From contig NHNW01000016.1 in NCBI GenBank assembly GCA_002786025.1, forward strand, positions 620,001-684,000: a stretch of DNA of 64,000 nucleotides. The letters run 5' to 3'. The position numbers and the translations under genes were made by a program. Each line of letters starts with the position of its first letter. Position 1 is the stretch's first letter. The notes under the pieces are model-generated. The model had not been told where the DNA came from and did no database searches. It was given only the letters and a program-made list of their open reading frames with translations. Source of the DNA: Zasmidium citrigriseum (lineage: Eukaryota; Ascomycota; Dothideomycetes; Mycosphaerellales; Mycosphaerellaceae). Positions 4,857 through 55,277 of this stretch are shown here, piece by piece.

Positions 4857-7800
4857 CTACCGCTGAGAGCTCGAGCTCGTCTTTGGAACGGCCCATTCGT
4901 CCATTTCTTGGGCTGGTGTGAGTGGTTGATTGCGGCCATAAGCTGATGACGATGGTGCGCCCAGGATCATAGACGTCCGCTGGCTTCCTGGTCGCGAGTC
5001 TGGAAGGTCGGCAAGATAGTCGCTGTTCCTGTTGGAATCCGAAATGCTTCTCACCGACTGGCGATTGTAGCCGTAGCTGCCGGCGCGAGGTCGGACTGTT
5101 GGTGCGGGCACCTTGCCGATAGTATCTCTCGTGCTGACGTCGCCTCCCACATTCAGCGAGTCGACGCTAGGCTTGGCGTTCAGCGTCACGGGCATCGTCG
5201 CACTACGCGATGGTGTGCGGCTGTTGGCTTTCGATGATGGAGGTCGCACTGGCTCGTCCTCAGGCATGTTCTTGGTCATATCGATGGGCGTGCTGCTGCG
5301 GTCTCCAGCATGCGTTTCGACAGGCGTGAAGTCTCGTTGACTCCAGCTTGGGCGGTGTGCCCTTGCGCCGTAGGGCAGGTTAGTCTGGCTTATGCTGGCA
5401 ATGCTCTGCGCGCGGCTGTTAGCCCGGCTGCGATTGATGGGCGTGCCATTGCCACTGCGGGTGCCGAATCCTGGAGTTGAAGGTGCCTCGTCGTTCACGC
5501 TCATGTAAGAAGCGTTGGGATCGATAGATCGCATCTCTGACACAAACTCGTCATCCTCGTCCTCTATTTTGGCCAGTCTGCGCACATTCTTCATCTCGAA
5601 TCCATACTTGGGCTCTTCCGGTGGTGGCGGTGGCTCCTTCTTCTTCTTCGGCTTTGGCTCCGATGGCAGATCGTCGTATTTGCGGTCAAGGTGGTTGAAG
5701 TATTTCTCGCGTAGTCCCTGCCACTTTCTAGGTCGGAAGTCCTCCTTGTTGCGAGATACAGACATGTACGAGCTGATGGCGCCGACGATGATTGCGATCA
5801 TGGTGATGATGGTGAGGATACCTTGGATCACGATGATGACAATTCCGATGACCGTAGTGATGATGCGCCCCAGGTTAAACTGCACATCAAACGCGGCCGA
5901 CAGCGCGACGGATGCGACTTTGCTGAATCCAAGACAATAGACGACAAGGATATTCAGTCGCTGGCCCTCGAATGGCCGTGCCCAGATGATGAAACAGAAA
6001 GCGAGGAACTCGATCACAAGCAGGCCGAACACTTGCGCTTGGGGGTATCCAGATGCGCCGCCGTAGAAGATGGCCTCGAGGAAGGTGTAAAACAACCATG
6101 CAGTGAAGAACCACCAACGAGTACGACGGAATCGAGATGCAAGCCAGCCGAACTTCTTGGTGTAATCCTCGTCATCGTGGATGCTCTTGATCTGTTCGCT
6201 TGGTTTCATCAAGCTGCCCAAAGTACCAGCGGAGGCCATGCGCTTCCACATGGGCTTGCTTCCAGATTTGCTCTCTTCTCCCGCCTGTTCGCCCGATTCT
6301 TCGTTGACAGAGGCAATTGCAGTCTTCTTCATTCCAAAGCGTGGGATTGGCAACCTGCCGCCAAGGAGCTTGTTACGCTCAGAACGCGGACCCTCGTTGT
6401 AGTCGGTAACGTTCCACTTATACCAGACAGCATACGCAGCAATGGAAGGCAGTCCGATGAAGAAGATGATGAACACGATCGCTGCAACTCCCTTTACACC
6501 ACCAGAAGACTGGAACGTGAATTGGAAGATGGTCAGGAACATGATCATGAACCAGCCAATGAAGCAAGTCCGAAGAGCGACCAAGCCGCTGTAGCCAAGC
6601 CAGTGATCGCGGAAGAACTTGAGACGGTCTTGCTTGATCCACTTAATCGTAGCAAGTCCCTCCAAGATCCACTTCAAGGCCATGACCGCGGCGACCAGGA
6701 GCACAATCAGGATCAAGAACCATAGGAACCCGGTCATGAAGGCGTTGCTGACAGCGATGCCCTCCTCAGCCAAAGTGCCAGCAAAGCCAGAGTAGTTACC
6801 TGGTAGAGGAAGTCCGTTCTTGACAGGATGTCCGTACCAGTGGTATCCGTCGCTAGCATCAGCGATGGTGTTGTCTCGTCGTCCAAGGGCACGTTCAGCA
6901 GCGCGTTGGACAAGGTCGCGTTTGAGGATGTTGCTTGGGCTGCGGTTGTAGATTTCGGACGGGATGTCGCGGAACAGAGGATGGTTCATGGCTCGCTCGA
7001 TGCCGCCGCTAAGGGCTCTCTTGTAGATGGAGCTGATGTCGTATCCTCCACCTACTCCAGAGTTTGCGGATCCGGCCTGGGCAGCACCGACTTGGGAAGT
7101 GTTGCCAATGTTCGTGCCGATCAGATTGTCGATGCTGCTCTGCATGCTCGAGCTGTAGATCATGCCTCCCGCCCATGCAAAGTTACTCCACCAGGCCACC
7201 AGCACCGAAGGCCAGTTCATGGAGAGGGCGCCAGTAAAGAAGATGTGCTGCCAGACGGCGAAAACGACACCAACTGATAGCGAATGGGCGTAGTGTAGTC
7301 GCATTGTCGGGACAGCTTCACCATAGATGGCCGTGGCGAATGACGCGATCATGGCGACAAAGGTGAAGATTCCCAGAATGCTCCCTACCGACTCAGGTTG
7401 ACCGAACGAAGCTCCATTGGTCACGACTGCCGAATAGCAAGCAATTTCCTCGTGCGAAGTGTTGGAAAAGATTCGCAGAATGGCCTCTCCTTCGAAGTCG
7501 GGGATGCTCAGTGCGATGGCTGGAATGTTGGCAACGTCCGATTGTGCGACAGGAATGATACCACTGGCGGTGATGGGAACGCTGGCGTTGATGGGGCAGA
7601 GACTGTCACAGTGTTAGCAGACAAACACCACACTTCATAGTGCATTGACCCACCTGTAGATGTTCGCATTGCAAGGGTTAAAGACCAAATCAAATCGATC
7701 CTCGCCATACGCATAAACGCCAATATACATCATCAGACTGTCATTCGCAATGGCCGAATTCCCTGCCAAATGGAACAGCACCGTCATGTTGTCCTGATAA

Positions 7801-19042: not shown

Positions 19043-20261
19043 GTTTAACGATTCAGCTTGATGGAGCAAACGTGTATTACTAGAGGTGATACAAGCTTCT
19101 ACATGTATAAATACTTGAATCTGACATCAATCCTAGAAACTCCCTGGTCAAAAGCAAAATCGACCTGAACAGCCTATCAGAAGAGCTGAATAATTGAGTT
19201 TCGAAAGGATGATTGTATACCCGCGTGGGTAGTGCGGCAATCCATGGCTCTCGATGCCGACGGACCGAAAAGTCGGCTTTTGTGTTGTTCTTCGAACGCA
19301 AGGGGAAGGCTTCGCGATCTCTTCTGGTTCTTGATGTGCTAAGACGAGGGACAGATTACTGAACTTGGCATGCTGGTTCGTGGGATTGAAAATCAACCTG
19401 AGGCTGCGGTGATGGCTTCAGCTAGGTGGGTGCTTTGTGAGCTTGGAAGGATGGCGACGACCTTTTTCTAAAATGGGAAATGGGTGATTTGGAGAGGAAC
19501 GTGTGTTGTTGAATGCACTGGATCTCGAGCGGTCGATGGGAGCGGAGATGGTGCATTCTGCCAGACGAGATCGAAATCGACCTCGATTACAAACAGCGAC
19601 GACGACGACGCCTTCAAATCCCATTCTTTCAGCCGAGACATCCCGATTGCTCGTTAGCACTTCCAATCCAACATTCACTCGCCTCACGACCAACTTCGCA
19701 CGGACCTCGCACATGCTTGTCGCACGCGCAAACTCACTACGGCGTACCACACTTTCAACTATCACCAGACCTGCTGCTGCCTGTCCCGACCCACTCTTTC
19801 GATCCTTCTGACTCACACCCTCGCAACACAAAACGCCGCCAACTCTCTAGAACCTCTCTTCTCTTTCTTCTCCATCCAAGTGCAGTGGCGATACGCAGAT
19901 CAGTGAGGACCTCGTCCGAGATTGCGTTTTTGCTGGTTTAAAACTACTTAAACTGACCGCTTTGGTTGGATCTTTCGATTCGGCCGGGAATTTTTGGTTA
20001 AATCGTGCTACCTTTTCATCACGGTGCTTGCTTGTTCAGGGCGGGTGCGTGGAGAAGAAGAAGAAGAAGAGACAGAAGCCTTTCTACAGCAAGAACGATT
20101 CTGCAAAGCTAAGCTTTCATCGAGCCGTTAAGATAATTGTCGACGGGGACCTGTGCTTTTCGCATAGCGTTGGAGTTCAACGATTGAATTGATACCACTG
20201 CATTCCACTCTAGCTTGTGTTGCTCTCTCCCCGTGTCGACGATCATATCGACATGCCTAAA
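19043..20261. other. intergenic, no gene assigned
   Basis: 5' flank of the flavin reductase gene and 3' flank of the GPI-like gene. An antisense pair of 130-140-codon ORFs at 19418-19941 has no motif and looks like chance. A GAAGAAGAAGAAG run lies near 20055. Confidence 0.35.
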
Positions 20262-24098: not shown

Positions 24099-24921
24099 AT
24101 GAAGTACTTTATTAGCTCCGTGCTGCTTGCAGCGGCAGTGGCTGCTGCTCCGGCTCAGAACGTTGAGCGTGGTGGTGAGCTAGCCATGCCACACTTCCTA
24201 AGCACACGATCTAATCATATCGACAGATGTCGCTGAGCGTGCACCAATCGCGGAAGCCTTTGAAAAGACCTTCCGAACATTCATCGGCCGGACCGAAGAG
24301 GATGTAGCCAAGTTCATCTCCAAGGGAGAGAAAGTGACCCAAGAAACGACTGAAACCGCCCACAAGTGGAAGCGAGACGCCATCGATGCAGGAGACGACG
24401 CCGTTCATGCCATTGCCCTCTCCAAGAGATCACTCTATGTGCGTGGCGCTTCCGCAGAGGACGACGACTTCTGGAAAACCGAGCACAAAAACGCCGATAG
24501 TAAGGCCCGTGAGGCCATGAAACTAAAGCGTGAAGCATCTCAACATGCAGAGGCTGCCAACGAATTCCACGGCAAATACATCGATGCTCTCAAACGACGA
24601 GATGTAGGTGCCTCCGAGGACGAAATCAAGCGTGCGGAGGAGGAATACACCAACGCCCAATTCATCGCCAACAAACTCAAGCGAGAGGCCGAAGAGGCCG
24701 CGGAGGAAGCATCCGAAAAGTACGCCATCGTAGCCTATGCCCTGAGAGTCCGCAACAGTCCCATGGACATTGACACATTCGTGAAGCGGGAAGCAACGAA
24801 CGCTGAAGTGGCCATGGGCAAGGAACGATTCGCCAAGCGGGAGTTGTTCTTCGCCAACAAGGCTGCAAGGAAGCGAGAAAGAATACACAAGCAGGCGCTG
24901 GAATTGCAGGCGGAGTTTTGA
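24099..24921 (+). CDS. secreted Lys-Arg-rich repetitive protein (possible Kex2-processed precursor)
   Basis: Exon 1 24099-24174, intron 24175-24226 (52 nt, GTGAGC donor, CTAAT branch, ACAG acceptor, phase 1), exon 2 24227-24921, giving 256 aa. The N-terminus is a clean signal peptide (MKYFISSVLLAAAVAAAPAQ). The rest is hydrophilic, rich in Ala, Glu, Lys and Arg, and likely helical. It contains about nine Lys-Arg sites, three of them followed directly by Glu-Ala (KREASQ, KREAEE, KREATN). This is the Kex2 plus dipeptidyl-peptidase layout of yeast alpha-factor. The segments between sites are loosely similar but not exact repeats. It could instead be a small secreted coiled-coil effector-like protein. 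No known family is recognised. Confidence 0.75.
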
Positions 24922-31530: not shown

Positions 31531-32964
31531 TCAGTCGTGACCAGTCGCGTTGTGAGTACCTCTTGGTTCGGGACCTTGAGCAATGAGCGTCTCCAGCTTC
31601 CAACAGAGGGCTCGTAATCGTCCTTGCATTGCCTCGTAGTACTCCTCCGCCTTCGACTCATCCTCCGGCGGCGGCATCAAGGTCTTGCCAATCCAATTCA
31701 AGCGAGCCTGGGTTAGCCAGTCTCTCGTCTTGGGCTTGGAAGCCCAGGCGATTTCGTTCTTGAAGGTGTCCAGACTCACGGTCAGATAGTCCTTCCAGTC
31801 GTCGGGATGCGGCACGACAGTCGTCAGCGAGTTCTTGATCTCGTCGTTGTCGTAGGTGGCCTCAACGTGAGCAATGAAGGCTGCGCTAAAGACCTGTTGG
31901 CAGAAGCGGACGGATTGGAGTGTAATGTTTCTGCGCTGGAAGATTGGCACTGTGGGAAGCCTTGCCAGTCCGTCGGCTGTGCAGTCGATGTAGAGCGTAT
32001 CCGGCTTCGGTGTGTATGTGCCTTGCTCCACGATCACCTCGTCTTTCTTAATGTGCACAACTCTTCCTCGGCGAATGATAGTCCCAACCTTGCGAATCTG
32101 TTCGAGCTCCGCAGAGGAGATGGTTGCGCACCGCCACATCGTTGGCCATACTCCAGTATCCAGCCTCGTCAAAGACCCTTGCGCTTCCTGCAGGAGGTAG
32201 TACTCCTCGATGGATTTGGCCTCCATCAAAGGGGCGAATCTCTTGGCCCCTGCCTCGGCCGTCTCCTTCGATGTTTGAGACTTTGGCTGCAGCATGCCTC
32301 TTTCCCAGTACCATGAGTCTCGGGGCGTCATCCAAGATATAGATCTGGGGTCGATGCCATTTGCCAACATCCATAGACAGGCATCGATGCCGGTTTTGCC
32401 TGCGCCCACTACGGTGTAGGAGTTGTATGGCCGGCTGATGCTGGGCAGGAGATTCGGCGTAATCAAGGAGACGTCACTGTCCACTTTGTACTTCGGCGGC
32501 GCCATGGCTGGCACTTGAACTTTCATGTACGTGGCATCCACGATCTTCGTGCTCTCGCCAACCCGAAAGACCTTATTCGTGAGGATCGATCGAAACTGGC
32601 CGTCTCCAGTGTACTCGTGCTTGGTGAAGTACTTCACCCGGCCCGAGGGGAGAAAGGTATGATTCATGACATTCTCATAGTAAGCGCAGAGTTCTTGACC
32701 GGATGCAAGCTCGGCAAGGCCTTTGTTCCAGCCGACTTGATCAATCTGGCCTTCGCCCAGATCTTTCGAGTTGACCCCATAGAACGACGAAGGCTGGTGG
32801 AGCCGTACGTAGGGATATGCAATCGTCCAATGGCCGCCTGGGCGCGCGTAGCGGTCAACAATGGCGATAGATGCTTTGCTGTCGGTCAGCATTGTGTCCA
32901 CGAAGGCCATGCCCATGGCACCGGCGCCGATGACCAAGTAGTCGACGTTGACAGTGTCGCCCAT
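31531..32964 (-). CDS. FAD/NAD(P)-binding oxidoreductase
   Basis: Single exon of 477 aa, ATG 32964. The FAD motif is at the very start (DYLVIGAGAMGMAFVDTML), followed by DRYARPGGHWTIAYPYVRLH, in which the GGxW-type block is typical of FMO-like proteins. A second Rossmann motif reads YTVVGAGKTGIDACLWML, followed by SWMTPRDSWYWERG. IDCTADG near the end resembles the conserved FAD-contacting region. The family contains many uncharacterised fungal proteins annotated as NAD(P)-binding or monooxygenase-like. It is probably an oxidase or monooxygenase of a small molecule. It sits inside the oxidoreductase block, divergent from the Zn2Cys6 gene. Confidence 0.85.
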   Translation of the reverse strand: MGDTVNVDYLVIGAGAMGMAFVDTMLTDSKASIAIVDRYARPGGHWTIAYPYVRLHQPSSFYGVNSKDLGEGQIDQVGWNKGLAELASGQELCAYYENVMNHTFLPSGRVKYFTKHEYTGDGQFRSILTNKVFRVGESTKIVDATYMKVQVPAMAPPKYKVDSDVSLITPNLLPSISRPYNSYTVVGAGKTGIDACLWMLANGIDPRSISWMTPRDSWYWERGMLQPKSQTSKETAEAGAKRFAPLMEAKSIEEYYLLQEAQGSLTRLDTGVWPTMWRCATISSAELEQIRKVGTIIRRGRVVHIKKDEVIVEQGTYTPKPDTLYIDCTADGLARLPTVPIFQRRNITLQSVRFCQQVFSAAFIAHVEATYDNDEIKNSLTTVVPHPDDWKDYLTVSLDTFKNEIAWASKPKTRDWLTQARLNWIGKTLMPPPEDESKAEEYYEAMQGRLRALCWKLETLIAQGPEPRGTHNATGHD

Positions 32965-33748
32965 TCTGAACGAGAAATCGTGAAGTTGAGAAAATTTCGA
33001 TCCTCTGTTGGCTGGATATTAAGGCAAAGATTTGAAAAATGCACTCACTGTGGCGGAGGAGTCCATTGGCTCTTTACATTTCGAAGTCTCCGTTGTTGAT
33101 TACTCGCGCCACTGCAACATCGATGCTGGCGGACCGGAATTCACCCGCCGGATCCTTGGAGAGTTGGAGATGCCGCCATTTAGTGTTCTTGTGATGCTTG
33201 TTAGAAAGCTTAGCACGTGCATGTGATTGAGACTCAATGGAGATTTGCAAGACTCCAGCGGCCGCTCTGGATGTTAGTGGCTGTCCGCAGGCCGCGGAGT
33301 GCGGAGCAAGCCTTATGGTCGCACGAGAAGTTTTGCTCCGATGCAGGTCGACTTTCCCAAAATGTATCCGTAGCAGGGACGTCAGTGGTGTGTTTACTAA
33401 TCGGGCATGAGTAGTCGGCACCGAGTCGAGTCATCCAAGAGCGAGAGCGATGTGACCTCAAACTCGTTCCGCGCTCAGAGTCTTGAAGGCTCCGGAATTT
33501 CACATCGTCTGTTAGGGCTCTCCAGTGGTACTTATGCCGCTGCAGATACTGTGCACCGCGAGCATTTGGAATTGACCCATCAGGCTGCGCTAGCAAGCGA
33601 GTACGCACCTGCAGCAGCCACTGGCGACAGAGCTGAACACTGCCTGGCTTGGCACGCGCAGTCATCTCAGCCGCAACGATGTAGTCGTCCCAAGGGATAT
33701 ATCATGACGATAGTCCAGCAGGAAGAGACCATGACCAGCTAAATCGAA
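32965..33748. other. divergent promoter between oxidoreductase and Zn2Cys6 regulator
   Basis: About 0.8 kb shared 5' flank. No motif-bearing gene. Such head-to-head spacing is common where a cluster regulator controls its neighbour. Confidence 0.4.
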
Positions 33749-35407
33749 ATGGCGGCCTTGGACAGCGATTGCGAATCTCCAGTTTTCAGGCCTCGAAAAT
33801 CTCACACCAAGTCGAGGAATGGATGCTTGTCGTGTAAGCAACAACGCAGAAAGGTGAGCTTGAGCAAAGTGATTGGATCTGAGCGGTTCGGCTGAGACGA
33901 TACCAAGTGTGACGAGGCTCGGCCATCCTGTTTGCGCTGCCGCAAGCGGAAGACCGCTTGTAGATATGACGCAGGATCGCGGCAGCAGTGCGCTTCCTTG
34001 ATCAGGTCTCAGTATCGTCCAGAACCTGCTTTACTCCGAGGAGCGGCATGGTCCAAAGCGTCGACGATCCTGGCTGCTGGCCTTCCTCCGTGTCTGGGTG
34101 AAGTATGCACTGATGGCACAAGCTTAGCGGATACGCTCGCAGCAATCGAGCTAGATCTGCTGGCCCGGTATTTGACCCACACCAGCCACATTATCCCGGT
34201 CGATGAGGTGGACGTCTTTGCCCTGCAGGTCGGCATTCCCAGTCTGGCTTTTGGGAGTGCACCGCTCATGGACACGGTGCTCGCTCTTGCGGCAGTATGC
34301 CGATGTCATGAGATCTTGAACATGCCGGAGATCAGTCGTCGGGAGTGGAAGCAGTTAGATGATCTGCTCGCCCTGGCGAATCATCATTACTCCTCATCGC
34401 TGCATAAGACGCAAGAACTGAGTTCGATCGAGGCAGAGTACGACAATGTCCTCGCCAATGCCACCATCATGGTGTTGTATGGAGCTGCAAGCCACAGCCT
34501 CTGGGTCCGGATCGCTCGATCGTCACATGAAGAGTTGGCTGGACGCTTCCCGCCGACGCCTATGCAATGGATGTCCCTGATTCGTGCTGCCGACCTGGCA
34601 TACAGAGGTCTCTTGAATTGCCGTACAGACACTGGCTGCGATTCTGTTGGCGACGAGCCGCCTGTGAGATCTCGGAAGTGCGATTGGCCTGCTATCCGTT
34701 CGAATAGCCCTTCAAGAGAGCTTGAAGACGGGCCTACGGCGCAGACCAGATGTCTCATTCAACCGATAATCGCGGCAACAGCGAAGAACGCTTTAGCAAG
34801 TCTTCGTCAGAGGCTGCAAGACGCCATTGCCAACCATGGTGAAGACAGGACTTGGGAGGTCGCAGTCCAGCCACCTCAATCATGTTGCCAGGCTTTCGAG
34901 GCATTGCAGAACATTGTCCACATCATTGTCGCCACATGTGGTCGCAATCGAAGATCGGTTGAAGATCGAATCGGGGCCTTGCCGCCGCAGAGTGGACTTT
35001 TTGCTGTGTCTCCTTGGCTGCGGACGTACGTCGCTCAGGTGACATCTGCGGTCCCGCAAAAGCAGCTTCGTCGAATCGTCATGTCGTTTCTGAACCGAGT
35101 ACCGCTTGGGTTCCTCGATCTGGTTCAATGCTCACTGGAGGAAGATTCATGGCAAGACGTGCACGCCACCCCGGCAGCTCGACTGGCGCTGGACATCTTC
35201 GCTCACTGGCTCGTGCTGGTGACGTTGCTTGATGGCGTGTGGTGGATTGATGGAATTGGAGAGTGGGAGCTCGAACGAGCAGTTTCTCGATTCAACCAGA
35301 TGGGTTCATCAAAAGACGAGGACGGTGAATGGTGGCCCGAGAAGATGTTGATGGTTCGGAGAGAGCTGCTGGGCGGGGAATGCTTCGTTGATGGACTGGA
35401 GGACTGA
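33749..35407 (+). CDS. Zn2Cys6 fungal transcription factor
   Basis: Exon 1 33749-33853, intron 33854-33907 (54 nt, GTGAGC donor, CCAAG acceptor, phase 0), exon 2 33908-35407, giving 534 aa. The intron cuts the zinc cluster. Splicing yields NGCLSCKQQRRKCDEARPSC then LRCRKRKTACRY, i.e. C-x2-C-x6-C followed by C-x6-C-x2-C, the binuclear cluster with its basic linker. The remaining 480 residues are helical with scattered Trp and Leu and resemble the fungal-specific regulatory region. No coiled coil is obvious. Its place between oxidoreductase genes suggests it is the pathway regulator. Confidence 0.9.
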
Positions 35408-36078
35408 GATTATCATCACTTCGCGACGGCGATGAGGTCGGAGGCCGAGGATTTTGTCGCAGATGTAATATCTTGTCGATTGTGCGAGGAGTTGGCGATG
35501 ACTTGGATGTTGCTGATGGAGGGAAGGTGCACTGGAGAAGGACCCCGGCTTCTGCCCTTGTGTTTTTGTTTCGATTCTGCAGCCATCCGCTAGCGTCCGC
35601 TGTCATCACCCAATGAGGCTGCGGTGGCTCTTTCTCCCCCGCGGGTCCAACTTCCCAAGTTCTTCCTCTCCATCCACAGCACACAGGAGGTCCATCTGTC
35701 CATCTGTTTCCTCCCGGGCAGGCCATTACAACGCGCAGCGAGAGTGTCAACTTTCTATCGCGAAGGCTGCAGCGGCCCGTCGACCAAGTGAAGGCCTCAC
35801 AATGGTGTCGTCCCCAGTAACGGCGAAAAGAGCCCGGTCTGGCACGAATTGTGCTTCTGTCAATTGAGAAGCTCACGGCGGATGCGCGGATTATCGTGAC
35901 ATCCGTATAGACAGGCAAGTCGAAGTCCGTTAAGGGCTGACTCGCATTGACTGCCGGTTCAATCATTTCATGCGGTAGGATTCACTGATGTCAACTTTCT
36001 ACGCCGCTTGAGGCAGCTCGAGCTTCAACTTTCATCTCACTTCTTTCCAATACACTTTGTCATCCAAGAGCAAAACCC
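35408..36078. other. intergenic, no gene seen
   Basis: Contains a long minus-strand ORF (35966-35292) that overlaps the end of the Zn2Cys6 gene and is compositionally biased. I regard it as a shadow. Confidence 0.4.
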
Positions 36079-37409
36079 ATGGCAGAAACAAAACCCCTCA
36101 GAATCGCCATCTCCGGCGGCGGCGTCGCAGGCGCCTGCCTCATGCACGCCCTGACCCAACACCCCAACCTCGACGCGCACATCTTCGAAGCAGCCCCAGC
36201 CTTCCGCGAAGCCGGCCTCGCCATCGGCATCGCTCGCCAGGCCCAAGAAGCCCTCGAACTCATCGGTCCCTCAGCCATAGGCGCCCTCCACCGCTCCGGC
36301 GCTGTCCCGTCGAACGGGACTTGGTTCATGGTCGCCACGGGTCCGGATGCTGGGATGGAGATTGATCGGATTGATACGAGTAGAATGGATCGGGTGGAGA
36401 GTATTACCCAACGAGCGGATTTTTTGAAGGCTCTGCTTGAGGGTGTGCCGAGTGAGAGGATGCATGCTGGAAAGCAATTGAAGGAAATTTTGCAGGCTCA
36501 AGGTGAGGACGGGGAGATTGTGTTGAAGTTTGCAGATGGGACGGAGCATGTTTGTGATGTGCTTATTGGCGCTGATGGGATTAGGAGTTTTGTTAGGAAG
36601 TATGTTCTTGGTGAGCGGGATCCTGCCGTGAATCCACGGTGTGCGGGTTGGTATACGCTTTGGTTGATGAGGCCTTATGAGCGAGCGCGCGAGCTGTTGG
36701 GGGAGGAGTGGATTGCGAAGGAGAATCATCGTGAGATTGCTTGGTTGGCCGGTGATGGGACTTGTATTATGCACAACATCTCCCAGGGTGGCAAATTGGT
36801 GCAGTTCGCGGCTTGTGTGTGGGATCCGGAGAGTGTGGGTGGGCAAGACTGGATGAAGCCGGTGGATATTGAGGTTGAGAAGAAGAAGTTTGCGAATTGG
36901 CCGGAGAGGTTTCAGGATGCTTTGGCTGAGTTCCTAGGTGAGGAGAAGGAACCGAAGGGGATTTATTTTTGGGAGCATCCGCATGCGAGGACGTATGTGA
37001 AGGGGACCGTGGGAGTTATGGGAGATGCAGCGCATGGAACCACGCCATGGTAAGTCGAAATTCCACGAATTTGGCCTGCTAATGTTGAAAGTCCGTCTAC
37101 AGGCAAGCATCCGGCGGCGGCATGTCGATCGAAGATGCCCTGATCCTCTCAACACTCCTCTCGAAATCCAAGAATCGCAAGGAAGCGGCAACAGCTCTTC
37201 AAGTGTACAACGAAGTCCGCCTTCCACGGACCCAGGAAATCGTCGATTCGAGTAGGGCAATGGGAATGCTCTGCCTTGGCCCCGGGCCTCTCGATCTCGA
37301 TAACATGAAGGGTAACATGACGAATCGTTGGGACCATATCATGTTATTCGAGAATGCGAAGAGTCGGGACGAGGCGGTGAGGATGTTTGAGGAGAGGGTG
37401 AAGGGATGA
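36079..37409 (+). CDS. FAD-dependent aromatic hydroxylase (salicylate hydroxylase-like)
   Basis: Exon 1 36079-37049, intron 37050-37102 (53 nt, GTAAGT donor, GCTAATG branch, ACAG acceptor, phase 2), exon 2 37103-37409, giving 425 aa. The GxGxxG motif appears at the start (LRIAISGGGVAGACLMHAL). DG motif: VCDVLIGADGIRSFVRKYV. GD motif: GVMGDAAHGTTPWQASGGGM, split by the intron. These are the three fingerprints of class A flavoprotein monooxygenases (UbiH/salicylate hydroxylase). Exon 2 adds the helical tail (EDALILSTLLSKSKNRKEAA). It probably hydroxylates an aromatic or polyketide substrate with NAD(P)H. The 5' part of exon 1 is C-rich and the rest is not. Confidence 0.92.
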
Positions 37410-40338: not shown

Positions 40339-42123
40339 ATGTCGCCGTCGCAGTCCTCCACCCGTCCCAGTGCCCTCCAACAACTCCACCACCGCGCCTC
40401 GGGCTCGTACCACTACCAGACCTTTCCGACAGCACCACCACGAAACGCTGGCCGCCCTCCGCCAAAGACGATGAAAAGCCTGGATTCGAATGGCAATCCG
40501 CCCTCGCCGCACCTCTCCCGCTCCGAATCGTACTCCTCGCAGCAACATCATGAAACACCTCTACCTAAAGGGCAGTTGGCGATCCTAGCGGTGATAGCAT
40601 TGGCGGAGCAGACGGCGTTGAACAGCATATCTCCATATCTCCCTGATATGGCGAGCTCGTTTCCTGAGGTCAATGAGGGCGGGATTGGCATGTATGTGGG
40701 TTTGATAGCCTCTGCTTTTGCTTTGGCACAATTTGCGACCAACTTCCTATGGGGATGGTTGAGCGATCGTATTGGGAGGAAGCCGATCGCGTTGACGGGG
40801 ACGCTGTTTACCGCGGTGTGCTTCATTGCATTCGGGTTCTGTAGGACGCTCTGGCAGGCGATACTGGTACAGGCGTTGATGGGACTGGTCAATGGCAATC
40901 AGGGCGTGATCAGTACGTGCTTGGGGGAGATCACGGACCGCTCAAACCAAAGCCGTGCTTTCACATACTTGCCAGTGATCTATGGCATTGGAGGTATCAC
41001 TGGACCCTTGGTTGGAGGCTTGCTGGTGTTGAGAGAGCACCCGTTTAAGAAAGGTCACCCCAATCCTTACCCGTATCTCCTGCCAAACCTCTTCTCGGCG
41101 GCCGTGCTGGTGGTGGATTTCATCCTCACATCCTTCTTCTTGAAGGAGAGCTTGGATACAGCTTCGGAACTACCTCCACTCAAGCAGCGCATCGAGAGCC
41201 TGTTCTCCTGGATATGGCAGTTCACCAGCTCTCACGCACCCACATACGTGCGCAGGACTGGGAAGAGCTCACACGAGAACCACTACCGCGCTGTGCCTAA
41301 TAACGACACCATCGAGGAAGAAGAAGAAGACGACGACACGGACTCCGAAGCGCCCTCGGACTTGCAGGAGAGCCACGATCACCTCGACCGCAAGGACGTC
41401 TTCAACCGCGATACGATACTCCTCCTCTCCTCCTACCTGATCTTCCAGTTAAGCAATATCTCCTACAACTCGCTCTACCCGATCTTCTCAGAGGCCAAAC
41501 CTCCCACCGGGCGCTCACTTAACCCAGAGGAGATAGGAACTTCACTCGCCTTCGCCGGCCTAATAACCATTATCTTCCAGGTGGGCGTCTTCGGCAAGCT
41601 GCGCGAGAAAATAGGCAACAAAACTACGTACCGCGCGGGCATGGCGGGGTTTGTGATCGCTTTCCTCCTGATGCCCTGGGTCGGCTACAAAGACAACGCA
41701 GACGGCTCAGGTGAAGCGACCACGATGGGAAAAGTCTGGCTCTGGGTGGAATTAGGCGCAATCCTCATCATCAAGACCGTCGCCTCGGTGGGCGGCCTCA
41801 CCTCCGCGCTCCTCCTCATCACCAACAGCGCCCCTTCACACGCTGTTCTCGGCACGTTGAACGGTCTCGCTCAGACTCTCTCCGCGGCTGGGCGCGCGGT
41901 GGGCCCTTTTATCAGCGGGAGCCTGTTCAGCGCCGCGACGCATGTTCACCCCAAAGGTGAGGCTATGGCGTTTGGCATCTTTGGTGGGGTGAGTTTTCTC
42001 GGCTTCCTTATGAGTTTTGGGATCAGAGGAGCCGAACTCGAGAGCGGTGATTGGGATGAACACGATGATGAAGAGGCGGTGGAGAGCGCAGACGAAGATG
42101 TTGATACGGAGAGAGGGCGATAG
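40339..42123 (+). CDS. MFS transporter (DHA1/ZIFL-like)
   Basis: Single exon of 594 aa, ATG 40339. About 75 cytosolic residues come first, then twelve predicted membrane segments. MFS motif A is clear after TM2 (LWGWLSDRIGRKPIALTG). LGEITDRSNQSRAFTYL and GIGGITGPLVGGLLV follow, matching the fungal zinc-induced-facilitator-like subgroup of DHA1 carriers. A long central loop is acidic (a run of Glu then Asp), and the C-terminus is acidic too. The substrate is unknown, possibly a metal-organic compound or drug. It lies 1 kb from the UstYa gene, but its sequence looks like a conserved core gene, so cluster membership is doubtful. Confidence 0.88.
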   Translation: MSPSQSSTRPSALQQLHHRASGSYHYQTFPTAPPRNAGRPPPKTMKSLDSNGNPPSPHLSRSESYSSQQHHETPLPKGQLAILAVIALAEQTALNSISPYLPDMASSFPEVNEGGIGMYVGLIASAFALAQFATNFLWGWLSDRIGRKPIALTGTLFTAVCFIAFGFCRTLWQAILVQALMGLVNGNQGVISTCLGEITDRSNQSRAFTYLPVIYGIGGITGPLVGGLLVLREHPFKKGHPNPYPYLLPNLFSAAVLVVDFILTSFFLKESLDTASELPPLKQRIESLFSWIWQFTSSHAPTYVRRTGKSSHENHYRAVPNNDTIEEEEEDDDTDSEAPSDLQESHDHLDRKDVFNRDTILLLSSYLIFQLSNISYNSLYPIFSEAKPPTGRSLNPEEIGTSLAFAGLITIIFQVGVFGKLREKIGNKTTYRAGMAGFVIAFLLMPWVGYKDNADGSGEATTMGKVWLWVELGAILIIKTVASVGGLTSALLLITNSAPSHAVLGTLNGLAQTLSAAGRAVGPFISGSLFSAATHVHPKGEAMAFGIFGGVSFLGFLMSFGIRGAELESGDWDEHDDEEAVESADEDVDTERGR

Positions 42124-43122: not shown

Positions 43123-44169
43123 TTAGCTATCCTCTGCAAGCTCCGAGCATCGCGGCTCAAAGTCGTCTTCAACACCAATCGCCTTATCCCAGAACTCATT
43201 CTCCGTGGCGGGTATTCGAGGCAATACCACATCGTCCTTTCGAGGCCGGAAGTCTGCCCATCGAGCTTCTTCTTCTGCTTGGGAGATTTTGGCGTCGATG
43301 TGGTTTCTGGAATGCCAGTCTACCAGCTGTTCGAAGTCGCGACATTGGCCTTTGGCTTGGAAGTCTGCGACGGGCAGCGTGCGGTTTTCCATCCAGTGGT
43401 ATGTTGTTATGGATGTGTCGGCTACGCAGGTTACTGTTTCGAGGAGGAAGTGCAGACAGTGATCCAGATGTGTGAAGTACCGAGAGCGTTCGTCGTCTGG
43501 TGGAAGACGACCCCAGCCTTTCTCTCGCCGGAAGTAGTGGTCGTAGTAGACTGCTTGCCGGAGTTTGTTCAGGCAGTGCGTTTGATGGAGGACGGTGATC
43601 AGGCCGAGATGGGTTTCGTCGCCCAGACCCCATTCTGGTGGGACTTTGACTGTCGTGGAAGGGTCTTTCCCTAAGGAGGCGACTTGTGATGATGTGAGGG
43701 CGATGTTGTGGACGTTTGAGATCCGATCCCATTCTGCGTCGACGGCTGCTGAGGGTGGTTGGCGGTAGAGGGAGGGAGGATGTTCTGGCCAGTCTGTGAT
43801 GGGGAGTGTCCGAGGACGGATGTTTGGATTGAGTCCAGGAATTGAAGGATCGGGTACTGTCGATGATTAGCAGCTTCTCTAATGAAGTTGTCGAAGATGA
43901 CTCTTACCCTTGAGACCAGGCTGTCGTTCATTGTGACTTTTCTGGAAGACGAGACATACTGCCAGGAAGGCTGCGACTACCCATCCCAGTACCAACCAGA
44001 AGGATCTGACATTGTTCCGCCTCCGGTATGCTGGTTGTTCGAGCTCATTCGCTTCGATTGATGGACGTTCTTCGTCCAAATTCTGCTTTTCTTCAAGCGT
44101 GTCGCAAACAGTCTCCCCGGGCGATTGTTCTCGTTGGAAGAGGCGTTGGTACTTCATCGTTGTCGACAT
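43123..44169 (-). CDS. UstYa-family (DUF3328) oxidase
   Basis: Exon 1 44169-43908, intron 43857-43907 (51 nt, GTAAGA donor, GCTAATC branch, GACAG acceptor, phase 1), exon 2 43856-43123, giving 331 aa. The N-terminus is cytosolic and polar, then one transmembrane helix (SFWLVLGWVVAAFLAVCLVF), then the luminal domain. The two diagnostic HxxHC motifs are present: VLHQTHCLNKLRQAV and THLDHCLHFLLETV. UstYa proteins catalyse oxidative cyclisation of ribosomal peptides in ustiloxin, phomopsin and related pathways, with probable copper or metal-dependent chemistry at these His residues. It is divergently transcribed from the repeat precursor at 44464 across 294 bp. This pairing is the core of a dikaritin-type cluster. 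No frame damage is seen. Confidence 0.92.
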
Positions 44170-44463
44170 TGGCGGCTGCCAACGAATGGATTCTCGAATC
44201 AAAGAAACAGTGATTGGGAGACTCCAGAGCTGGAGCAGGGACAGTGTCTAGGACAAACTTGGAAGGTGACTGTTCGAGCTGCCATCGAAGGATTTGTGCC
44301 GCCAGGCTTTATCAACGCCACCAGTTGGCGCTAATGATCTCCCTGCAGAGCCATGCCACCGAAGCTCGCAAGTGACAGACAAAATAGAGCTTATATAGCT
44401 AAGGAGAATGCTTCGGCTCAGTCAAGCTCATCTCGATTCTCGACCAGCTACATCAACGAAAAC
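44170..44463. promoter_or_regulatory. bidirectional promoter of UstYa and precursor genes
   Basis: The 294 bp between the two divergent starts would drive both genes together. A TATA-like element, TATATAG, lies at 44392-44398, about 66 nt before the precursor ATG. The in-frame ATG at 44353 lies upstream of it, which favours the start at 44464. Confidence 0.55.
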
Positions 44464-44970
44464 ATGCGTTTCCTTTCCAACTTCGGCCTCTTGGCCCTGG
44501 GAGCCAGCCTTGCCAGCGCTGCTGCTCTCCCCGTTTCCAACGACGACGTCTATCACTCGAAGGACGGCGGCATCATCAAGAAGAGCGACGATGTCTATCA
44601 TGCCAAAGACGGCGGTATTATCAAGAAAGACCCGAAAGACGATGTATACCATGCCGGAGGCGGGATCATTATCAAGAAGAGCGACGATGTTTATCACGCA
44701 AAGGACGGAGGCATCATAAAGAAGGAGGTTAACGACGATGTGTATCACTCGGGAGGAGGCATTATCATCAAGAAGAGCGACGACGTCTATCACTCGAAGG
44801 ACGGAGGGATCATCAAAAAGGAGGCCAAAGATGATGTTTATCATGCGGGAGGAGGCATTATTATCAAGAAGGAAGCCAACGACGACGTCTACCACTCGAA
44901 GGATGGTGGAATCATCAAAAAGGAAGCGAGCGATGATGTATACCATGCGAAGGACGGAGGCATTATCTAA
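44464..44970 (+). CDS. Kex2-processed repeat precursor of a putative dikaritin-type RiPP
   Basis: Single exon of 168 aa, ATG 44464. The signal peptide MRFLSNFGLLALGASLASAA is followed by a very short spacer. Nine tandem repeats of 14-17 residues then follow, each starting DDVYH and ending GGII(I), separated by Lys-Lys. Two core types occur: DDVYH(S/A)KDGGII in repeats 1, 2, 4, 6, 8 and 9, and DDVYH(A/S)GGGIII in repeats 3, 5 and 7. Linkers after KK are S, DPK, EVN or EA-x. EA after a dibasic site recalls Kex2 then dipeptidyl trimming. The last repeat ends GGII and stop with no KK. Tyr and Ile in the core are the residues UstYa-type enzymes join in ustiloxin-like peptides. The divergent UstYa neighbour supports a RiPP precursor. 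A wall repellent peptide is the main alternative. Confidence 0.85.
   Translation: MRFLSNFGLLALGASLASAAALPVSNDDVYHSKDGGIIKKSDDVYHAKDGGIIKKDPKDDVYHAGGGIIIKKSDDVYHAKDGGIIKKEVNDDVYHSGGGIIIKKSDDVYHSKDGGIIKKEAKDDVYHAGGGIIIKKEANDDVYHSKDGGIIKKEASDDVYHAKDGGII
44539..44967 (+). repeat. tandem coding repeat, nine units of 42-51 bp
   Basis: The unit begins GACGAYGTNTAYCA and encodes DDVYH...GGII plus KK and a 1-3-residue linker. Units differ mostly at third positions and in the alternation KDG/GGG, so expansion was by unit duplication followed by drift under protein constraint. Confidence 0.9.
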
Positions 44971-48469: not shown

Positions 48470-48702
48470 TGTGAGATAAAGTGGGTACTCGCGTAAAACC
48501 ATGCAGGTTCAAAACAGCTATCTACGGCTGTTTTTATGCTTATTATATTAGCTAACTTTCGGCTAAGAAACACGGAAAACTCTCGCTTTTGATGGTATTA
48601 TCGCATAAAACATACGCTAAAAGTCTACTTTTCCGTAACCTATAATACTCTATTATTACCCTTACTAGCGTAAGTCTAGCGCTATAGATTACTTATCTAA
48701 TA
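48470..48702. repeat. left LTR (233 bp)
   Basis: Starts TGTGAGATAAAG, ends CTAATA (CTAACA in the other copy). The outer ~134 bp are nearly clean. The inner ~100 bp carry C-to-T and G-to-A changes at CpA/TpG. Confidence 0.95.
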
Positions 48703-51700
48703 CACCCCCTTAGAGCTAGACTTTACCTCTTTATATAAAATCCTTAAAGGTCTCCTTAATATTGTCTCTAAAACGATTAAACTTCTTTATAACCTTATCC
48801 TTAATCTTCTTAAGTTAAGTATTATTAAAGAGACTATTACGGCGCTTCTTCTTAGGAATAGGCGATTCCTTAGTAAGGTTAATCGCCTTCTTCTTATTCT
48901 TCTCGCTAAGCTCGTTAAAGGTAAAGAAGGCTAGCTAATAGCGCTCCTCTAAATCTACCTTAGGTTTTATAACTTTTATTCCCTACTTCCTACCCTAGCT
49001 ATAGACGAAGTCGTCGATTACTTAGATAATTTAGACTATCTCGTCGCGCTATAAGTATTTAGTATTAATTTTAGTAATAAGGGACTAAATACCCTTTAAG
49101 GAAGTCTTAGTAGATTTATTAAGAACTTTCTCGAGAGTCGTAGTCTTTACGCCCTTTTAGTTAACTTTATAGACCGCGTTGCTATTCTTATCGTATTTAG
49201 TAACGAAGATAACCTTTTAGGCGGCGTAAAGGCGCTCGTTAGTATAGAAGAGCGGCGTAATCTCTAGAGGAATAGTATACGCGGCGGAGTAGCTTATAGT
49301 TCTACCCTTAAGAACCTTATCGATATTGTCGTTTATTAGATTTAGCTACGCTATAAGCTACTCCTAGATCTTATAGCGAGCGTTAGTAGTAGAGTTTCTC
49401 GCCTTCTTACTAGCGGATCTAGGGAGAGCGGAGAAGGGAGTACGCTTATAAGTCGCCTTATTTAGCGTCTTTTTAACCTTCTACTCGCGGTTAGCTTTAC
49501 TAACTATCTATTTCTTCTTTAGTTTTAGCGACTCTTCCTTATCTTCGTTACTACTAACTAGAGTCTCTCTTAGCGATCTCTTATAAGATTTAGCGCGCTA
49601 AGACTCTAGGGTCGTACTCTTTAGCGCCTTTCTAGTAGTCTCTTACTTCTAGCTATTCTAGCCTTCGACGGATTCTTTAATAGGCTTAGTTAATATAATA
49701 GCGTTATTTCTAACGAAGTAGAAGAGGCTATCGTTAGTCTAGCTCGCTATTTCGTAGTACGTAATAGTATATAGGTAGCGATTCTTAGTATTAATACGCT
49801 CGTTTACGCTTATAGGGATCGCGCTCTTTTTAAAGGAAAGCGCGAGGTCGTTACTAGGATTAGGTAAAGAGCGAAAGAGAGGGCGGATAAGTAGAGGTAG
49901 AGGGGTTAGTAGTAGTAAGCGCGTTATTAGAAGTAGAAAGGTTTAGGAGTTTTAATAGCTAATATAGGTAGCGTAGTAGCCTATACTTTTAGCGTAATCT
50001 AGATTACGTAGGTAGATTCTAGTATATATAGGCTAGTTTCTTATTTACTTATACCTTAGTTTCTTCCTTACGTAATAGATTCTCGGCCTTATTAGTAGGC
50101 ATTTAATAATCTATTACTTACTTTTCTAGCTTAATTACCCCCTAAGGTCGAGAAGATTATCTAGTATTTAGTAATTCTATTCGTTTCTCGAGTTCTAGTA
50201 TCGTAAGATCGCGCTTTTCTTCTATCTTTAGCTAAGAAATAAATATAATGTACTTCTAAATTAGTAGAAGTTTTATTAATCTATTAGTAGGAATATTATA
50301 GGTTAGTATCTAAGTAACGTCTAAATCTCCTTAGTTATATCGTTCTCGAAGCTAGTATTATTAGATATTAATATACCTTATTTTCGTAGAGATTTTACTA
50401 TTTAGAGCGGTAATAACGCGTAAGGTTTATTAATTATTATAGTAGAGAGTCGACTTCTTTTCTAGTTAGATACTAATTCTTCTAATTAGTCTTATCTACT
50501 ATATTATCTTAGATCCTACGTAAGATAGAGTATAAAGCTCTAATTCTATACTAGATTTCGTAACTAAGGTCTACTTAGATAATTTCTAATCGATTAAACT
50601 ACTAAATAGGAAGAAGAGAAAGCCCTTACTTAATTTCCGAGTCGTAGAATTATCCGCGAAGGAAGCGTTAGAAGTACTAAAGAATTCTTAATTTACTAAT
50701 ATCTTCTAGTAGGCTAGCGTAAGATACTTCGTTATATTAAGATATCTTAGTAAATATTTAGCTACCTTAATATCTACTAGTTATAGATTCTAGAGCCTTC
50801 TTACTAATAGAGAGGTTAAGAATATAATATCTAGTCTCGTCTAAATAGCTATAAAATTAATACTTTCTATAATACTCTAGTAGTATTAATAGTTAGTTTT
50901 ATTTGCTATATAGTCCTTGGTTTCCTCGATTTCTATATTAAAAGTAGCTAGAAGGGGAATCTTTAGGCGATCGACTATTATAATATTATACCTATTAATT
51001 AGTTTCTTAATATAAGCCTATTAACTTAGGTAAATTATCTACTTTTTAGCGTCTCGAAGAATCTTAATATTATAGAACTATTAGATTAGTCCTATATCTC
51101 GTACTTTATAGCGAGATTTTAGTAATTCGAGATCTTTTAACGCGTTAGATTTCTTATAAGAAGGAAAAGCGAAGATAATATTATTAATAAAGAAGAAGAT
51201 TAAGAGTCTTCCTTTAATTATAATATAATCTATAACTTTAAAGTACCCTATCTTTATAAGAGTTACTTAAAGTTCGTAATACTAAAGGTTTAGTAAGACC
51301 TTTAGTCTATAGATTACGCGAGTATAGTAGAGGTATTTTCCTTTTTTACTAAATCCCTTAGGGAATCTAAGGAAGATTAGCTTAGGAAGTTCCGTATTTA
51401 AGAAAGTATTTACTACGTTAACTTAAATCGTTTTAAGTCCGTAGTAATTAATAATCGATATTAGTAGTCGAAAGTTTCGAGCCGCTAAAGTCGTAGTATA
51501 AGTATCGAGTTCTATCTTTTAAAGATTACCTCTTATATATATTCTCGCCTTAAACCTCTTAACGAAGTAATCTATATCTAGCTTATACTTCTAAACCTAG
51601 GTTATTAGTAGAGGTTTAGATATAGTATTAGATAACTATACGATTTCGAATATTTCTATATTAAGAGCTTTCTAAAACTCCTTATTTATAGCGATTTCAA

Positions 51701-54700
51701 AGTTATATTTAAATAGATACTTCTTTAAATCGTTAAATCTCTTTAGTTCTACTAGTATATTAGAAATATGTCGCTTTTAACTATCGTTAATAGTTAACTA
51801 GATTGCTAAGAAGGCTATATAATCGTTACGTTATAGTCGTTTTAGATCGATAATATCCCTAAGGAATAATAGATAGGGTTCTTCTTCCTTAAGTAATCTC
51901 TTTAGTCCTTACTAATACTTAAAAGTGTTATAGCTTAAAGGGAAGAGAGTTTACTACTAGATTAGAACTAGTTTAAAGTAGACGTCTTCTCGTATAGATT
52001 ATTCCTACTATCTCGATAAATTATAGGGGATTTCGTAATCTACGTTACTAATAGATAGCTATTAATACTAATAAGGAAACTAATTCTTAAAGGTATTTTG
52101 TCTTTATTACTAATTTAGGACCTATACTACCCCCTAATCTTCGAAGAGGGTAGCGAGTTCGTAAGAGTCGGCTAAATCGTCGAATTACTCTACGGCTAGA
52201 TCCTATAGAAGTTAAAGTTCGACGATTTTATTAAGTTAATTCTTTATAGTATATCTAAGATTAAGATTATTTAGGCCTTAATAGCGAGCGTCCTTATTAA
52301 AGATTATATCCTTAGTCCGAATTACCTTATTAAAGGAGGGAATCTAGATCTAGTAGATATTACTACCTTTAAAACTAACTAAATATCTAATATAAGTACG
52401 AGAGTCGAGTTTACTTCTATAGAGAAGATTAGTAGGTTTTATCCTATACGTATAGGCTCTCGCCTTAACTACGTATATATTAGCGATATTAGGCTTTAGT
52501 CTAGTAGTAGCTTTATAGGGTGTCTTCTAATTTAGCGCCCTTATTAGTAATCTATTAAAGATATAGGTAGTAGTAGATACTAGTTCTAGCTAGAGAAGGT
52601 TAGGAAGGTTACCTTAAATCGTTAAAGATCTAGCTATTTTAATAATAACTCCGCTAGGTCTCTCTACTAGATCCTATACTAGAGTATAAAGTACTATAAG
52701 TTATAGATTAACGCCGTCTTTAAGTAGTTAAGAGCGGAAGGCAATCGTATAACTAGTATTATTATTAGTAGCTAATACGATTAGATCTCGTCTAAGCTTT
52801 CGTATAAATCTTAGTAGCTCCTAGTAATATTCGGTAATAATATATCCGTTATACGTTAGAATAGTCTATATAAAATATAACTTCGTATTAATATCGAATA
52901 CGTAGATTATGAATTTATCGCCGTTTATAGCGGGATTAAACTCGTATATATTAATAGTAACGTCGGAAAATAGGTAAGGAAGGCGACTCTTTTAAGGCGT
53001 CCTTCTTAAGATTATCCTATATACCTTAGATTAGTAGTAAGTATTATACTAAGTTAGCTTCGGCGCGGACTTTTTATTAGTAACTTTAACTCCTTCTAGT
53101 TAATTCTTAAGTTACTTAATCCTCTTAATACTAATATAGCTAAAAAGTCGGTACTATTAGTATTCTAAGAGCTTTCTTACGAAGAGTAGGCGCCTTAAGG
53201 ATTATACTATAAAGGCCTTTATATAGCTCCGAGCCTATTAAAGGTCGATAGCTTCTTTAACTTTTAAAGGGTTACCTTTTAAATTAAGGGGCTATTTATC
53301 GAGAATATTTCGGTTAATCGCGGATTAAGCGAAGGAATTAGTAATATTAAGGTATAGAAACCCGTCCTTTCTAAGGATTTTAGTAAGTCCTTTACCCTAA
53401 CTATTATACTAAATATTATCCTTTTTATTAAGATAGAGTCTATAAGTCCTTATCTTCGTACTAGATACTAGATTCGTATAGAAGCTAGGGATATACTATA
53501 TATTCTATAGTAAAAGCTCGATAGGTTTACTATTATACCCTCTTAACTTTAGCTTTACTTAGCCTTAAACTAGAGGCTAAAGGTACGTATTACTAATAGT
53601 TACCTAAGAAGAGGTAAGAGACTTAGCTTTAAACTCTATAATCTCTAGGTTATTAATAATATAGATATTTAATCTAGGATTAAGTAGCTAATCGTCCGAG
53701 AAGTCTAGGCTCTAGGTCGATAAGGCTTAAAGAATTACTATAGAGGCTAATAGTTTCTTTAGAATATCGTTAATATCTCTAATCTATCGTAGGAGAGCGT
53801 TAGATCTAGACTACTTTTCGCGATAAAACTAGTTCTAAATCGTCCTTACTACTATATCTTAATACTCGGTTATCTACTTCTCGTAGAACTTAGGGTACTC
53901 TTATAGATACTTCTTATAGTAATCGTAGTATCGTTTATCTTTATCGCTTATTTCTAAGACCTTTAGGCGTTTCTTAGCGTTAACGATATTATACTAAGAG
54001 AGGTTAGAGTAGGCTTTATTACTTAGTTTACCTATAAGGTTAGTATAGCCTCGCGTAAATCCTTAAGGGTTAGATAATCTACTATTTCTATTCCTATTAT
54101 TACTAGATAGAATCGTTAGTTCGTCCTTATCTTTAAGAGTAGCGTTTACTCGCTTATCCTTAAATACTAGTTCTTGCTCGAGAAACTCTACTATTAGGTT
54201 AAGAGCTTTATCTAAACTCGTAGTTTTAGAAGTAATAATCCTACCTTTAATAAGGTCGATCTTACTTTCTACTATATAGATAAAGTCGTAGAATAGACTA
54301 GTTTCTAAAGGGTAGTTAATTTGCTTAATTCGATACTTATACTCGCTCTATTTAGGGAGATATATACGATAGTCCTTAGATTTTATACTCTTTATAAGTT
54401 CCTCGTAGTATCGAGTAAGGAAAAGTCGTTAGTTTTTGTTAGTAGGTTTAAAAACTTCTCTAATATAGTCGTACTATTAGGTATATATCTCGAGGCTAGC
54501 GTTATTTATAATTTAAATATATATATCTAGTACCGTTTAGTCGAGATAGCCTTTAAATACTAATTTAGTCTTATAGAACTTAGTAATATCTACCTTCTCT
54601 TAGCGATATATATTCTATTTAGTAGAGTAATTATCGCGCTTAAGCTTATATCTCGCCTAAACTACCTTAGAATCGGTATCTATAGGGAGAGTAGGATAAT

Positions 54701-55039
54701 CTAGAACTATAGTATTAATAGAGGGTTTAGGGACACGAGGAGCGACGTCTACTATTTACGTAGCGTTTTACTTAACTCGTAAGTTAATATAGTTATACTT
54801 AAAGTACTTCTAGATATTATTTCTTATAGTAAGCGCTATCGTCTAGTCGTTCTAGGCGTCGTACTTAGAATAGTTAGTAAGGAAGACGAGTACGGCTTTA
54901 CTAGTCCTAAGGGACGCTAAAAGGTTAGAGAGAGATATAATTAAAACGATAAGTATCTAGAAGATCTTAAAGGGTAGCTAAGTTAACGAAGAAGGCTCTA
55001 GCTTATAGTAAAGAATTAGTAGTAAACTAGGCTTATAAC

Positions 55040-55272
55040 TATAAGATAAAGTAGGTACTCGCGTAAAACTATATAGGTTTAAAATAGCTATCTATAGCTA
55101 TTTTTATACTTATTATATTAGCTAACTTTCGGCCGAGAAATACGGAAAACTCTTACTTTTAATAGTATTATCGCACAAAACACACGCTAAAAGTCCACTT
55201 TTCCGTAACCCATAATGCCCCATTATCACCCTTACTAGCGTGAGTCTGGCGCTGCAGATTACTCATCTAACA
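55040..55272. repeat. right LTR (233 bp)
   Basis: Starts TATAAGATAAAG (mutated from TGTGAG), ends CTAACA. Here the inner ~130 bp are mutated and the outer ~100 bp are clean, a mirror image of the left LTR. Confidence 0.95.
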
Positions 55273-55277
55273 CATGA
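55273..55277. repeat. target-site duplication, right copy (CATGA)
   Basis: Five bases after the right LTR, identical to 48465-48469. Confidence 0.95.

Follow-up and report, generated by a model that had tools for sequence, protein, structure and literature searches.

A putatively secreted repeat protein encoded beside a single UstYa-family gene raises the question of what kind of peptide such a pair would produce. We examined one pair of this kind in a 64,000-nucleotide stretch of the Zasmidium citrigriseum genome (contig C57:620001-684000, referred to here as the window), and we put the probability at about 75% that it is a dikaritin-type RiPP locus with the architecture of asperipin-2a, in which a single repeat precursor is accompanied by a single UstYa-family oxidase. 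The preliminary description of this DNA had likewise read the pair as dikaritin-type, and that reading is well supported by a family match, intact HxxHC motifs, the selection seen on the repeat units, and a total of nine UstYa-precursor pairings in the genome.

The precursor gene

The precursor gene lies on the forward strand at positions 44464-44970 of the window, where an open frame encodes a putative Kex2-processed protein of 168 residues. Its start resembles a signal peptide (MRFLSNFGLLALGASLASA, 44464-44520, forward strand), with the end point and the probable cleavage point placed by eye; residues 7-22 form the most hydrophobic part of the protein, as judged from hydropathy and inspection. 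Translation, unit comparison, and tandem-repeat searches delimit an array of nine DDVYH units at 44542-44967 (forward strand), and the units with their spacers make up 142 of the 168 residues. Lys-Lys follows every unit except the last, giving eight sites between the nine units, and this is the dibasic-separated arrangement found in KEPs. The earlier claim of a secreted protein composed mostly of KK-separated DDVYH units is therefore upheld for 44464-44970, with secretion as a prediction. A Pfam search of the precursor returned no match, and NCBIfam gave two weak matches that were far below threshold. Tandem-repeat scores at the precursor reached 254 for a 51-bp period and 395 for a 96-bp period, the latter being reported by Tandem Repeats Finder and corresponding to two adjacent units with their spacers, while other arrays in the window scored 75 or less. 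Because these scores stand far above those of the other arrays, and because codons vary while residues are fixed, the array is not a product of chance.

A single DDVYH...II core had been proposed for this protein. All nine units do carry DDVYH, but two core types are present in the one precursor. Type A, DDVYH[S/A]KDGGII, occurs six times (units 1, 2, 4, 6, 8, and 9), and type B, DDVYH[A/S]GGGIII, occurs three times (units 3, 5, and 7), so that the order along the protein is A A B A B A B A A. The residues D, D, V, Y, H, and later G, I, and I are invariant across the nine units, while the Val codon of DDVYH is used in all four of its forms. Among the six type A units (15 pairs) we calculated a pS of 0.855 against a pN of 0.021, and among the three type B units (3 pairs) a pS of 0.76 against a pN of 0.024; as pS is near saturation these values are rough, but their direction is clear. 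That the units agree in residues and differ in codons indicates that the encoded peptide, rather than the DNA, is being kept by selection. Every unit also contains Tyr, the residue available for side-chain cyclisation in dikaritins; in a published survey, Tyr was present in 65.6% of the repeats of KEPs beside DUF3328 genes, compared with 38.2% for other KEPs (PMC7329392).

The UstYa-family gene

The neighbouring gene (43123-44169, reverse strand) encodes a UstYa-family (DUF3328) protein of 331 residues after splicing of its two exons, which is probably a membrane-anchored oxidase, the oxidase role being assigned from the family. Its score with Pfam PF11807 (UstYa) is 156 bits, the cut-off being 25, and removal of a 51-bp intron (43857-43907, reverse strand) with GT...AG borders and a CTAAT branch-like site joins the PF11807-matching frame. 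There is a single strong hydrophobic segment, at residues 57-75. Two HxxHC motifs follow, HQTHC at residues 178-182 (43573-43587, reverse strand) and HLDHC at residues 217-221 (43456-43470, reverse strand); in an alignment of 11 sequences, both His of the first are conserved in at least 90% and its Cys is invariant, and in the second both His and the Cys are invariant. The true start of the protein may be at 44157 (Met5), since this residue aligns with the first one of the Zasmidium relatives. An NCBIfam search of the protein gave no match, a profile built from the 11 UstYa sequences found no solved structure at E up to 1, and a structure model of the second exon had a mean pLDDT of 45, too poor for use.

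The two genes are head-to-head with their start codons 294 bp apart, and the divergent DUF3328 gene with two HxxHC motifs that had been noted at this distance is thus confirmed. The intergenic region that they have in common (44170-44463) may act as a shared promoter, and it contains a TATATA at 44392-44397, 67 bp upstream of the precursor ATG. Two features of dikaritin loci, a UstYa/DUF3328 gene adjoining the precursor and a pair of HxxHC motifs, are therefore found together here.

Relatives of the two genes

Out of 2061 candidates, two were homologues of the UstYa protein at E <= 0.001. Both are Zasmidium cellare proteins (P0001 and P0002), 69% and 64% identical to it along 94-95% of the protein, and the oxidase is conserved in that species. 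For the precursor, no homologue was found at E <= 0.001 or even at E <= 10 among the 7990 candidates scored, which were those listed at 0.55-1.75 times the precursor length. A second copy was not found in the fungus's own genome, where the copy in the window stands alone. Our search of the open literature found the DDVYH core solely in a plant-virus paper judged to be unrelated; the supplements of the KEP catalogues lay outside this search, so the repeat could be listed there. Within this scope the suggestion that the core is unlike published ones held up, as DDVYH occurred neither among the scored candidates nor, that paper apart, in the literature searched.

The pair had also been called new, and here a distinction is needed: the peptide sequences appear new as far as searched, but the kind of locus is well known. 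A 2020 survey of 1461 fungal genomes reported 7878 KEPs in 838 types plus 2560 singletons, and for 1758 KEP genes (22%) a DUF3328 gene was present within the nearest 15 genes, with immediate adjacency the commonest case (PMC7329392). The nine dikaritin clusters described in Venturia inaequalis likewise speak against novelty of kind (PMC9632046).

Release and trimming of the repeat units

Kex2 sites of dikaritin precursors are reported to include KK, and removal of XA/XP pairs is known for KEPs (PMC9769878). We therefore considered the eight units that would be released at KK, leaving out the first unit, which follows the signal peptide. Three of these eight have one Ser in front and are already 13-mers. 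In four others the opening residues are DP or EA followed by one more, and loss of the X-A/X-P pair would leave a 13-mer, while the remaining one starts with EVN and would require a cut after E-V to give a 13-mer. Ste13-like dipeptide trimming of the DDVYH units is thus probable, and the genome contains one match to the Kex2-type P-domain and two of the DPPIV type. The computed linear [M+H]+ values of the 13-mers are 1389.664 (SDDVYHAKDGGII), 1405.659, 1432.670, 1357.711 (KDDVYHAGGGIII), and 1359.654, the last of which needs the E-V cut, and each cross-link would shift the mass by -2.016. In ustiloxin and phomopsin the core takes up four residues of a 13-14-residue repeat (PMC7329392), so here too the mature peptide may be shorter than the 13-residue unit set free by processing.

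UstYa-precursor pairs across the genome

A search with the UstYa profile gave 43 matches in the 44.4-Mb genome, which group into about 32 genes. We inspected 20 UstYa neighbourhoods, consisting of the window and 19 distinct loci (20 fetched 10-kb stretches, of which L033 and L034 overlap), with four weaker UstYa loci left out of the count. Under a fixed rule, a repeat precursor was an open frame of at least 60 codons with at least two 4-residue words, each occurring at least three times, and at least one dibasic pair, with shadow frames at the same place merged. Repeat precursors were found in nine of the 20 neighbourhoods, eight by this rule (the window, L022, L023, L025, L028, L029, L035, and L039) and one, L036, by inspection after a looser rule in which two pieces share five residues. 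Other single frames returned by the looser rule were dropped as chance-like: three in the window besides one overlapping the precursor, two in L024, and one each in L031, L037, and L040. The fixed rule found no repeat precursor in the rest of the window, which was the sole control region and a thin one. Because they have few dibasic sites in the scanned frame (one in L028, two each in L029 and L035), these three are weaker KEP cases in which cutting would rest on single basic residues.

The repeats of the other precursors are SPDAYTIPK, YRPLVNVALPPS, TDLLNTSSLPVKER, DDSAGSTGVVNVM, RDGSTEFDPDAFLK, HDETYYYLK, CTGAQCFELWKR together with DPKTLIFWKK, and DDTNIFCSK. Four precursors (L025, L028, L029, and L039) have no Tyr in the repeated motif, although L039 has a few outside it, so proximity to a UstYa gene alone is no proof of a Tyr cross-link. 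Except in L028, which is tail-to-tail, the precursor stands head-to-head with the UstYa gene nearest to it (eight of nine). In the window, 295 bp separate the two start codons. For the other seven the interval was taken from the precursor ATG to the N-terminal side of the UstYa match and is 666-1256 bp, with ATGs outside the window chosen by eye from signal-like starts and intervening genes possible. If the genome held 100 such precursors, chance alone would place about 0.26 of them this near to any of the roughly 32 UstYa genes, the proximity zone for this estimate having been set after the distances were seen. Chance proximity is very unlikely.

Some of these loci deserve separate mention. 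At G000:C110:176-178 kb (L001, L022), the UstYa protein is 34% identical to that of the window, the closest among eight own-genome sequences aligned (of about 31 others), and the pair is head-to-head as in the window. Its precursor (L022:6026-7032, forward strand) has about 15 SPDAY units with spacers such as DAEAEP, and the mostly SPDAYTIPK repeat gives a YxIP core of the phomopsin kind, closer to phomopsin YVIP. The L036 precursor (7037-7600, forward strand), with CxGAQC... and DPKTLI[F/L]WKK repeats, lies near two UstYa genes, and its Cys pair is reminiscent of alpha-pheromones. At G000:C129:44247-51320 (L033 and L034), several UstYa matches are interspersed with tyrosinase matches in a ustiloxin/phomopsin-like manner; our scans found neither a repeat precursor nor a YxI core in this cluster.

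Alternative explanations

The precursor could instead yield a linear Kex2-processed peptide with a signalling, antimicrobial, or surface-active role, while the neighbouring UstYa enzyme acts on something else. Several KEP peptides are described as linear, and the EA/DP spacers look like the STE13 motifs of linear pheromone precursors (PMC9769878); in addition, 78% of surveyed KEPs have no DUF3328 gene among their 15 closest genes (PMC7329392), and the Tyr-free precursors of this genome sit beside UstYa genes as well. However, nine neighbourhoods pairing UstYa with a precursor, eight of them head-to-head, make chance proximity very unlikely, and we regard a linear product as unlikely.

We give far less weight to a secreted repeat protein that acts whole and uncut, for example in the wall or as an effector. 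Proteins of this type have been classified as effectors, among them Venturia Cin3, but Cin3 has since been placed among the putative dikaritin precursors (PMC9632046). This reading also fits poorly with KK after every unit but the last, and with units that are conserved as peptides while the spacers vary.

A mating pheromone precursor of the alpha-factor type would share the signal-peptide-like start, the Kex2 sites, and the EA/DP spacers, but the alpha-pheromone core carries Cys or Trp residues and no DDVYH unit contains either, so we rejected this least credible of the readings. The pheromone genes of the survey are also almost all without a DUF3328 neighbour, with three exceptions reported (PMC7329392).

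Other features of the window

An MFS transporter gene (40339-42123, forward strand; PF07690, 141 bits) is a possible exporter by analogy with the asperipin-2a transporter (PMC12048977), with uncertain membership in the cluster. A second KEP-like secreted protein with many KR sites is encoded at 24099-24921 (forward strand), with its start, MKYFISSVLLAAAVAAAPAQ, and an intron at about 24175-24226 assigned by eye. Between its main exon and the L039 precursor, which lies beside a UstYa gene, identity is 34% (E 2e-10); the sole UstYa match on contig C57 is 18 kb away. Three adjacent genes at 31531-37053 possibly form a separate metabolite cluster: a Pfam-less open frame with a flavoprotein-like start by eye, a Zn2Cys6 regulator that is weakly matched (21.5 bits where 21 is the cut-off), and a FAD_binding_3 gene. 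An AT-rich block at 48474-55274 sits between two Na/Ca-exchanger half genes, has 231-bp direct repeats at its ends (48474-48704 and 55044-55274, 87% identical), and shows a strong RIP-like signature over 49001-55000, where (CpA+TpG)/(ApC+GpT) is 0.00-0.05; it looks like a RIP-mutated LTR-element insertion. A U4 spliceosomal RNA gene is present at 19874-20010 (forward strand).

Proposed pathway and comparison with known systems

For the dikaritin-type reading, we infer the following course. The precursor would enter the secretory pathway, where the membrane-anchored UstYa enzyme would oxidatively cross-link the Tyr of each DDVYH unit with a neighbouring residue. Kex2 would then cut after each KK, a carboxypeptidase would take off the lysines, and a Ste13-like dipeptidyl peptidase would trim the EA or DP pairs. 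The outcome would be two secreted 13-residue families, [S/N]DDVYH[S/A]KDGGII and [K/N]DDVYH[A/S]GGGIII, or shorter cores within them. The order of the steps, the trimming, the cross-link and its partner, and secretion are all put forward here as presumed. By analogy, the product would most likely be a compound for defence or host interaction. UstYa-family chemistry also includes hydroxylation, chlorination, and desaturation (PMC12048977; PMC10512285), and members of the family occur in non-RiPP clusters as well (PMC12048977).

A bolder version, which we consider improbable, is that the lone UstYa makes a new cross-link on two interspersed core families, joining Tyr either with the His next to it or with a distant Ile/Gly in the unit. 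If so, one gene would give rise to a secreted two-component set of cyclic peptides, and the genome would contain about nine UstYa-precursor modules, this locus among them and most of them divergent. The locus is in any event a compact case: it pairs a single precursor with a single enzyme, its Tyr-His core is strictly conserved, and its masses can be predicted exactly, so the chemistry of a lone UstYa is easy to test here. The roughly eight further pairs in the genome, with different cores and some Tyr-free motifs, could reveal the reach of UstYa chemistry.

By 2022 the dikaritins on record numbered only five (PMC10512285). The ustiloxin and phomopsin loci share with the present one a signal peptide (predicted in the window), repeat units, Kex2 sites, and UstYa proteins, and their EDYxI motif places acidic residues before Tyr (PMC6339444), as does DDVYH. 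The EDYxI or YxIx core of this subgroup is nevertheless absent from the precursor, whose core is DDVYH, and whereas ustiloxin and phomopsin have two and five UstYa-type genes plus a tyrosinase (PMC7329392), the window has one UstYa gene. None of the 22 tyrosinase matches in the genome falls on contig C57, and with no tyrosinase near, we rejected a tyrosinase-dependent ustiloxin-type cluster. Venturia inaequalis is similar in having many UstYa-precursor clusters in one genome, a likeness in count (PMC9632046).

The asperipin-2a locus of Aspergillus flavus differs in its core, which the preliminary description gave as FYYTGY, against DDVYH...II in the window. A transporter takes part in asperipin-2a maturation, and the transporter and reductase described for that locus have no demonstrated counterpart at the DDVYH locus (PMC12048977). 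In both cases, however, a repeat precursor with Kex2 sites is accompanied by a single UstY homologue (PMC12048977; PMC7329392), and asperipin-2a is the nearest architecture to the DDVYH locus.
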